DNA from: a virus
Virus record (IMG/VR): IMGVR_UViG_3300009079_000019
Coordinates: 1-64,000 of that record
Reading direction: 5' to 3' (one strand)
Length of the DNA stretch: 64,000 nucleotides
Shown here: positions 45,909 through 50,179 of the stretch, one piece after another
How the letters are laid out: each line of letters opens with the position of its first letter
How positions within the stretch are numbered: position 1 is the stretch's first letter
Translations under genes and position numbers: made by a program
The notes under the pieces: generated by a model
What the model saw: only the letters and a program-made list of their open reading frames with translations
Database searches by the model: none
Told to the model about the DNA's origin: nothing

Positions 45909-46403
45909 ATGTTAGAGCATCCGGTACATAAAGGTTATTATATCACAAAAGATGGAAAAGTGATAGGAAAAAAAGGAAACTATTTAAAATCATATGTTTG
46001 TCCTAAAGGTTATTTAAAAATGAAAGTTAATGGGATGAGTAGGTTAGTTCATAGATTAGTTGCAGAAACCTTTATTCCAAATCCAGATAATTTGCCTCAA
46101 GTTAATCATATTGATAAGGACAAAACAAATAATAACATTTCAAACTTGGAGTGGTGTAATGAGACATACAATAATCATCACGCAAAAGGTAATTTAGGAA
46201 TTATCTATAAGATATTCAAGGATGGAAGGTGTTATGCAGAAACTGACAATTTGCATAAGTTTTCGAAAGAACATAATGTATCAAAATCGAGAATGTACCT
46301 TATCGTAGGAACAGGAAAAGAATGTAAAGGATTTAGAGTTGAGTTGAATACTTTAGAACGAAGAACTAAACACATAACCATTCACGAAGTCAAAGTCATA
46401 TGA
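45909..46403 (+). CDS. HNH homing endonuclease with NUMOD4
   Basis: A 164-aa free-standing homing endonuclease on the opposite strand to its neighbours. The HNH core reads SRLVHRLVAETFIPNPDN, then VNHIDKDKTNNNISNLEW with the Asn/His pair, then ETYNNHH. The C-terminal part has a helix-turn-helix-like segment (KFSKEHNVSKSRMYLIVGTG) ending GFRVEL near residue 145. The last 17 codons run antisense through the end of ardA, suggesting the frame was extended by insertion there. Low GC compared with nearby genes. Confidence 0.88.
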   Translation: MLEHPVHKGYYITKDGKVIGKKGNYLKSYVCPKGYLKMKVNGMSRLVHRLVAETFIPNPDNLPQVNHIDKDKTNNNISNLEWCNETYNNHHAKGNLGIIYKIFKDGRCYAETDNLHKFSKEHNVSKSRMYLIVGTGKECKGFRVELNTLERRTKHITIHEVKVI

Positions 46404-48227: not shown

Positions 48228-48476
48228 TCAGCGGCGTTTGGTAGTTTTCGGTGCCACCTTTACAACTGGCACATCAGTATCAACGAATGCCTGCAATTGC
48301 CCCACAATAGTATCAACGAACCGCAGCACGGTTTGAATCACCTTGCGGGTCTTTTCTGCGCCGTTGTTTTCTTTATAAGCACGAATGCCAAATTGTACAA
48401 TTCCAACAACGATTGCGGCGATGGTAGCAACATTTAGAATCAGAGTTTGGTAGAACTTAGCGACGAAGAGTTTCAT
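48228..48476 (-). CDS. Membrane protein, 82 aa, with cassette-derived tail
   Basis: An 82-aa protein with one membrane span (TLILNVATIAAIVVGIVQFG) and a basic tail (KTTKRR). The final residues DVPVVKVAPK are read through the gene-end repeat (GTGCCA...TGGCAC at about 48251-48272), which in sister genes holds the stop codon. A holin-like role is possible from size and topology, but nothing proves it. Confidence 0.65.
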   Translation of the reverse strand: MKLFVAKFYQTLILNVATIAAIVVGIVQFGIRAYKENNGAEKTRKVIQTVLRFVDTIVGQLQAFVDTDVPVVKVAPKTTKRR

Positions 48477-48532: not shown

Positions 48533-48609
48533 ACCCCTCACCCGGCATTCCACAAGGGGTTCTGTGCCAGTTCGAGAATTGTCACATCATTATATCCAGA
48601 TACTAAAAA

Positions 48610-48829
48610 ATCCTCCTATTCTTGATACGTTTCAAGAACACGAGATAACTATATTCAGTTCGGTAATATTGGATTGTTCGCTATATTCGGCGCCGTGGGA
48701 AACCTATAGTTAAACCCTGTCCGCCTAGATGATATTTAAGGTTCACTTGGTTTCTTATATTCTGTCAGATTGACTCTGTATCCCGCAGGAGAGTTCAAGT
48801 GCTGCTCTATGATATAAGAACTCAAGTGA
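48610..48829 (-). ncRNA. Candidate structured late RNA
   Basis: No reading frame is usable on either strand between 48540 and 48870. An 18-base inverted repeat (16 of 18 paired) joins 48743-48760 with 48812-48829 across a 51-base loop. A perfect late promoter (48833-48840) would start transcription within a base or two of the foot of this stem. Further inside are complementary heptamers (AACTATA/TATAGTT, near 48650 and 48708) and a 7-bp hairpin (48619-48638) followed by AGGAGG and six U. The alternative is a long 5' leader for the 82-aa membrane protein, or a decayed gene or intron remnant. The right boundary is inferred from the promoter; the left one is a guess. Confidence 0.5.
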
Positions 48830-48832
48830 TTT

Positions 48833-48840
48833 TATTTATA
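48833..48840 (-). promoter_or_regulatory. T4-type late promoter with no protein gene behind it
   Basis: Perfect TATAAATA on the minus strand, three bases from the start of an 18-bp stem and not followed by a reading frame for 350 bases. Confidence 0.65.
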
Positions 48841-48870: not shown

Positions 48871-49023
48871 TTACATCCACGGTTCGAGTTCCCTTATGCT
48901 AGCATAGACATCTTCGTCACCTTCGAGGTCTAGAAGGTCCTTCCAGTCGGTTGTTTCTAGGTCTAGGTCATCATAACACATAATGTCTAATGTAACCCGT
49001 ACAAGGCGCTTCTGGGCAATCAT
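48871..49023 (-). CDS. Acidic protein, 50 aa
   Basis: A 50-aa acidic protein (MIAQKRLVRVTLDIMCYDDL; LDLEGDEDVYASIRELEPWM). Promoter TGATATAATC lies upstream. Its coding sequence is rich in CTAG. Function unknown. Confidence 0.6.
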   Translation of the reverse strand: MIAQKRLVRVTLDIMCYDDLDLETTDWKDLLDLEGDEDVYASIRELEPWM

Positions 49024-49633: not shown

Positions 49634-50179
49634 ATGGATATACCCAAGATAAAAGGATTAAATGAAATACTCGGACTTGAAGAATACAATGATTACGGCG
49701 TAGATGCAGATGGTAATGTGTATAGTTGGAAGACTAAAAAAATAAAGAGATTAAGTCCCGGATGGGCTAAGAAGAGAGGTGGATATTTGTTCGTTAGACT
49801 AACAGGTAATAATGGTAGATTAAAAAACTTATTCGTTCATCGTTTAGTGGCAATGGCATTTATACCCTGCGATAATTTCTCATTAGAAGTAAATCACTTA
49901 AATAGAAACCAACAAGATAACAGAATTGAAAACTTAGAATGGATAGAATCTAAAAGAAATAAAAAATACAATAAAGATATTAAAGGTTTTACACTAAACG
50001 ATCACTTACTTATGAAGACTAAAGAAGTTCATGTCGCATCTATTCGTAAGGGATTACCAGTACCAGACGGGCATTCTTTTATGAATAGTATTTTTGAGGG
50101 TGCATTAGAGCAGTACATATCTCAGTATGGTCTTCGTAAGGTAATGAATCGTTTACCAAATGCAACTAATTGGGATTAA
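49634..50179 (+). CDS. HNH homing endonuclease with NUMOD4
   Basis: A 181-aa free-standing homing endonuclease. N-terminal NUMOD4-like part (YNDYGVDADGNVYSWKTKKI; SPGWAKKRGGYLFVRL), then the HNH core (LFVHRLVAMAFIPC; VNHLNRNQQDNRIENLEW) and a C-terminal recognition part. It is AT-rich and on the opposite strand to its neighbours, like the gene at 45909, but the C-termini differ, so it is a separate arrival. Confidence 0.88.
   Translation: MDIPKIKGLNEILGLEEYNDYGVDADGNVYSWKTKKIKRLSPGWAKKRGGYLFVRLTGNNGRLKNLFVHRLVAMAFIPCDNFSLEVNHLNRNQQDNRIENLEWIESKRNKKYNKDIKGFTLNDHLLMKTKEVHVASIRKGLPVPDGHSFMNSIFEGALEQYISQYGLRKVMNRLPNATNWD

Follow-up and report, generated by a model that had tools for sequence, protein, structure and literature searches.

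The locus and its late promoter

The element described here lies in a window of 64,000 bases, positions 1-64,000 of the 71,483-base virus record IMGVR_UViG_3300009079_000019 (IMG/VR). The window resembles the T4-like freshwater cyanophages, and its best annotated matches are Synechococcus phages. Between the end of a 50-aa gene and the start of an 82-aa gene (minus strand, 48871 to 48476), there is no open reading frame (ORF) of at least 40 aa. The gap and its surroundings contain the following features:

48871-49023, minus strand: 50-aa gene of family phrog_12516 (E 1.5e-14)
48833-48840, minus strand: T4-type late promoter TATAAATA, exact match
48605-48829, minus strand: whole proposed ncRNA gene, about 225 nt from promoter to terminator-like end, with full-length homology in contigs L010, L052, L081 and others
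48228-48476, minus strand: 82-aa gene, downstream of the RNA

The octamer TATAAATA occurs seven times in the window, always on the minus strand. Five of the other six copies are followed by an ORF after 19-37 nt, and the sixth lies within a large ORF; the copy at the RNA locus is the only one of the seven that has no ORF of at least 60 aa behind it for 356 nt. Three bases (AAA) separate it from P1, the outer stem of the RNA, and the 3-nt spacing is found in all of the closest homologues. As T4 late transcription starts about 5-7 nt past the octamer, the transcript probably begins within the first few bases of P1. The octamer is then positioned a few bases ahead of the presumed start, as in a T4-type late unit. 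A first-pass annotation of this DNA had described a perfect late promoter with its start at the first base of an inverted repeat and no reading frame behind it for 350 bases. The promoter is indeed exact (48840-48833, minus strand), and the next gene is 356 bases away. The start stays at the foot of the stem, its exact base shifting, probably, to the first few stem positions.

The 50-aa gene product is an acidic protein, and its gene is mostly single-copy per record. In 27 of 36 members of the RNA family, no more than 1.5 kb separates the gene from the RNA, and the gene often ends 44-117 nt upstream. As phrog_12516 is also present in records in which the RNA was not detected (S-SKS1, S-T4, G013 and G014), the link between the two may be positional or functional; in S-SKS1 and S-T4, no RNA was found beside the gene. 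The 82-aa protein has a hydrophobic N-terminal segment and only a weak match to a holin (phrog_608, E 0.063). Two HNH_3 endonuclease genes of the window (45909-46403 and 49634-50179, both on the plus strand) are oriented against their neighbours and are both likely to be free-standing homing endonucleases.

Architecture of the RNA

The proposed RNA can be divided into the following parts:

48812-48829, minus strand: 5' arm of P1, TCACTTGAGTTCTTATAT, outer stem, presumed at or near +1 (inverted repeat, fold, compensatory changes)
48766-48804, minus strand: conserved core inside the P1 loop (alignment A1, RNAalifold core, covariation)
48743-48760, minus strand: 3' arm of P1, ATATAAGAAACCAAGTGA (inverted repeat, fold, compensatory changes)
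48689-48725, minus strand: 3' domain of the window type (alignment A4, 11 sequences)
48605-48644, minus strand: intrinsic-terminator-like hairpin and T6 (motif; conserved in A4)

P1 pairs 48829-48812 with 48760-48743 and has 16 pairs in 18 positions closing a 51-base loop, exactly as read at first sight. Inside this loop, the helices CAG/CUG (48804-48802 with 48768-48766), UUG/CAA and ACUCU/AGAGU accompany a hairpin, CC-UGCG-GG, of the UNCG type (loop 48787-48784). The core sequence CAGCWCUUGAAYUCUCCUNCGGGA is near-invariant: in alignment A1, both paired and unpaired bases hardly change across members, most of which have a hairpin loop of UNCG form (UACG, UGCG or UUCG). Mimicry of 16S rRNA (CUCCUACGGGA) was discarded as an explanation, since the stem is preserved while the UNCG loop is variable.

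The 3' domain has the order GGC-ggaca-GGG-UUUAACUAUAGGUUU-CCC-acggc-GCC, in which the stems GGC/GCC (48725-48723 with 48691-48689) and GGG/CCC (48717-48715 with 48699-48697) enclose a 15-nt loop, UUUAACUAUAGGUUU (48714-48700), that is invariant in 11 members. The 3' domain of many relatives is an H-type pseudoknot composed of S1, GGAG/CUCC, and S2, either RCGGU/AUCGU or UCCUGU/ACAGGA. The S2 alternatives occupy identical alignment columns, and the third loop is A-rich (GGCNNAAUAAAA).

The terminator-like hairpin, CUC-gug-UUCUUGA-aacgua-UCAAGAA-uag-GAG, is followed by T6 at 48610-48605, and the unit has its own terminator at the motif level only, as a conserved hairpin plus a U run. The element had been placed at 48610-48840; this placement holds, with the end slightly further on, at about 48605. 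The additional complementary segments noticed behind the repeat turn out to be the second domain and the terminator-like hairpin, both of which carry compensatory changes.

Folding and covariation

None of 200 dinucleotide shuffles folds as well as the minus strand of the 231-nt region (z -3.0), and the fold of the plus strand is weaker (z -1.9). Among the homologues, the z of the sense strand is lower than that of the antisense strand in 26 of 37. This comparison weakly suggests that the RNA would act from the minus, promoter-sense strand. G-U combinations account for 26 cells versus 51 for A-C, a count that does not favour the sense strand, in part because an internal-loop position of one subgroup is scored as a pair.

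Alignment A1, made with MAFFT from 17 members, is unfitted to structure. Double-sided changes are found in 15 of the 28 P1 and core pairs, versus 6.5 +/- 1.7 in shuffled alignments, none of 500 being as high, and RNAalifold recovers the core hairpin unaided. The alignment of 39 distinct rows made with the covariance model R1 is fitted to the structure and hence biased towards it; in its rows, 25 of 28 pairs have double changes, and the covariation score is 0.378 compared to 0.117 +/- 0.010 for shuffled rows; with slid partners it never exceeds 0.081. Every P1 pair has compensatory changes in alignment A2, and CUCU/AGAG of the core covaries to CUUU/AAAG, CUUA/UAAG and UUCU/AGAA. In alignment A4, which contains the 11 sequences with the window-type 3' domain, 98.8% of the cells are paired. 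The outer stem GGC/GCC changes to GGU/ACC, UGC/GCA, GGA/UCC and AGC/GCU, and the terminator hairpin shows a compensatory C-G/U-A change. The pseudoknot has few independent changes; its count of double-change pairs is not above that of shuffles, whereas its cells and score are.

The secondary structure thus covaries, as expected of a structured ncRNA, and the window unit has no sense ORF of at least 40 aa, while insertions and deletions alter the lengths of the members. Of the 37 homologous elements, 35 carry an exact TATAAATA, about 0.005 being expected per element; together with the covariation, this excludes a chance origin. The lack of conservation or covariation in related phages had been named beforehand as what would speak against the RNA; both are present. 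The earlier reading as a dedicated structured RNA gene is strengthened by a single-copy family with a covarying stem, a conserved core, a late promoter and a terminator-like end.

Distribution of the family

A search with the 82-aa protein as the query gave 65 contigs. Most homologues of this gene are not preceded by the RNA, and homologous elements are located elsewhere in other contigs. The core pattern CTTGAAYTCTN{0,1}CCTNCGGGA was found in 45 contigs, 39 of which proved to be true members on inspection. The 3'-domain pattern added 25 members, the window-type 3' domain as a query five, a relaxed core pattern one, and the covariance model one more (in L057). The family comprises about 70 IMG/VR contigs, near-duplicates among them. 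A search of 31 records with R1 located a single copy in 21, including records of 146 kb, 234 kb and 241 kb, and none in the rest.

Ordinary blastn against named phages gave chance matches only for the whole element and no match for the 3' domain. The core consensus led to an isolate, Synechococcus phage S-SRM01 from Serangoon Reservoir, which carries a divergent copy at about 86.6 kb on the minus strand, within a gap that has no annotation (E 1.7e-5). Neither model was significant in the marine phages S-PM2, P-SSM2, Syn9, P-HM1, S-SKS1 and S-T4 or in the freshwater phage S-CRM01, and the 3'-domain pattern was unmatched in bacterial and archaeal genomes. Freshwater cyanophages appear to make a folded RNA of about 225 bases, presumably late in infection. 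As the element is conserved across many of them, with a fold open to testing, and an isolate with a cultured host (Synechococcus sp. KCZYC6) carries it, its transcript and partner can be searched for directly.

Relation to known RNAs

To our knowledge, the structured RNAs described so far from T4-like phages are few. The covariance search suggested at the start was run against Rfam, and neither the gathering nor relaxed thresholds (E <= 10) gave a family match, which leaves no place for the RNA in GOLLD, ROOL or the other phage RNAs of Rfam; the covariation comes from the homologues. GOLLD and ROOL are likewise structured ncRNAs of unknown function that phages encode. The present RNA is shorter, however, with about 225 nt against more than 800 nt for many GOLLD RNAs, and it differs from both in having its own T4-type late promoter; a search of the window for tRNA and tmRNA found none.

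The ncRNA CfrI of the T4-like cyanophage S-PM2 is of similar length, about 225 nt (PMC2984593), but it is an antisense RNA to psbA and to a gene for a homing endonuclease, whereas the present RNA is intergenic; the family model finds only a chance-level match in S-PM2 (E 0.59). The PhotoRC-II, wcaG and manA motifs are structured RNAs of T4-like cyanophages as well (PMC2864571). Most of these motifs are leaders of genes for metabolism or photosynthesis, and Rfam includes them, in contrast to the RNA described here. Group I introns occur in psbA of cyanophages (PMC8557907). A resemblance of complementary heptamers to the intron P7 pairing had been called weak in the first-pass annotation and is now rejected, as no Rfam intron model matches even at E <= 10; furthermore, the genes on both sides of the RNA unit are intact, and the unit has a promoter and a terminator-like end of its own.

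A literature search found no structured RNA of a T4-like phage that is a dedicated late gene of the present type, and no paper describing the RNA of 48605-48829. By these comparisons, it is a new family of putative late cyanophage ncRNA within a known kind, the phage-encoded structured RNAs.

A possible mode of action and its alternatives

By combining the above information, it is possible to propose how the RNA might be made and used. The phage late RNA polymerase, consisting of the host core and a gp55-type factor, would initiate at the foot of P1. Transcription would end at the terminator-like hairpin to give a stable RNA of about 225 nt, protected, we infer, by P1 at its 5' end and the hairpin at its 3' end. 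In the 5' domain, the long and variable P1 would present the nearly invariant core with its UNCG-capped hairpin. The separate 3' domain would carry the invariant 15-nt-loop hairpin in this phage or the H-type pseudoknot in many relatives. The near invariance of unpaired core bases suggests recognition by some partner. In the last phase of infection the cores would be presented in trans to one or two proteins of the phage or the host. A gp55-type late transcription system has been described for cyanophages, with NATAAATA as the late promoter (PMC2984593).

That 48605-48829 is a dedicated structured RNA gene is very probable. Action in trans through a protein has about an even chance of being correct. 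Late transcription, action in trans and the protein nature of the partner are inferred from sequence features, and the combined reading, a dedicated late ncRNA gene whose stable product of about 225 nt acts in trans via one or two protein partners, is assigned a probability of roughly 0.6.

The RNA could otherwise be a cis-acting leader, a long late 5' UTR resembling a riboswitch or attenuator and controlling the downstream gene. The 82-aa gene does lie downstream on the same strand, its start 356 nt from the promoter. This explanation is nevertheless unlikely, because the RNA is separated from the gene by the terminator-like hairpin and its T6, followed by a distinct host-type promoter, the downstream genes differ among members, and the annotated flanking genes of S-SRM01 are on the strand opposite to the RNA, which can be no leader there. 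Moreover, most homologues of the 82-aa gene are without the RNA in front, and the gene's own host-type promoter is kept in relatives in which this site has no RNA. A riboswitch or other leader would keep its place before a single class of codirectional genes, which this RNA does not. Some effect in cis on its neighbours may nevertheless exist. Similarly unlikely is a base-pairing regulator, whose UUUAACUAUAGGUUU loop or core would pair with mRNAs of the phage or the host, or with a second molecule of the same RNA. The loop, invariant in its 11 members, contains the self-complementary CUAUAG, but it is missing from most of the family.

Phage RNAs can act as decoys against type III toxin-antitoxin systems, and the pseudoknot domain might mimic the target of a toxin or nuclease from the host's defences. 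Its compact H-type fold with an A-rich loop would fit such a decoy, and module swapping between phages would suit an arms race. Against this, the window version has no H-type pseudoknot, the predicted timing is late for evading abortive infection, and the members have a single pseudoknot without the tandem repeats of a ToxI-like antitoxin RNA and without a match to antitoxin RNAs in Rfam; a role as antitoxin mimic is therefore quite improbable. Finally, compensatory changes would preserve DNA hairpins too, and the strand evidence is weak, so that the late promoter and hairpin sequence might serve replication, recombination or packaging as DNA. However, the promoter, the domains and the terminator-like end share one orientation, UNCG-type loops and the pseudoknot are features of RNA, and the position and orientation of the unit relative to its neighbours vary between phages, all of which make a DNA element very unlikely.

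Modules and movement

The window-type 3' domain is combined with two subtypes of the 5' core; in L199, L200, L202 and L203 it is joined to core subtypes other than that of the window. The pseudoknot 3' domain is joined to the UNCG 5' domain, to a quite different 5' domain or to none (L153). This second 5' domain, GAGCACAACAGNCNG..CCGGTGAGATAAG, is unrelated to the UNCG type and is present in L145, L146, L154, L156, L160, L165 and L166; the copy in L165 has no match in Rfam. The terminators vary independently of the other domains. These combinations indicate that the RNA is modular, its 5' domains, 3' domains and terminators recombining between phages, and such swapping represents an example of modular evolution in viral RNA. 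It is possible, although somewhat doubtful, that these RNAs constitute a new modular class of viral RNA, single-copy and late, whose domains are swapped like those of proteins and which might function as an RNA-protein particle, a decoy or a regulator unlike any known one, perhaps with the neighbouring phrog_12516 protein.

A 24-base palindrome, TGTGNCA..TGNCACA, is found in nine copies in the window and in none of 20 shuffles:

41489, 42003, 44036, 46838, 47100, 48563, 48847, 52904 and 57012: palindrome copies, 24 bases each

Eight of them are just upstream of minus-strand host-type promoters and one precedes the late promoter of the RNA. The arms covary in relatives (TGTGACAG/CTGTCACA), and the palindrome is likely an operator, a terminator or a recombination site. 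As two copies flank the RNA unit in the window and a single copy is present at this place in relatives that lack the unit, it is plausible that the unit was moved by recombination at these repeats. A further recurrent intergenic element, GGGTTTGCCT...AAAGTTACCC...GGGAGTGGTGTCCCTGCCTTTTT, is present in the upstream regions of L052, L045 and L037 and is possibly another structured RNA or a terminator.
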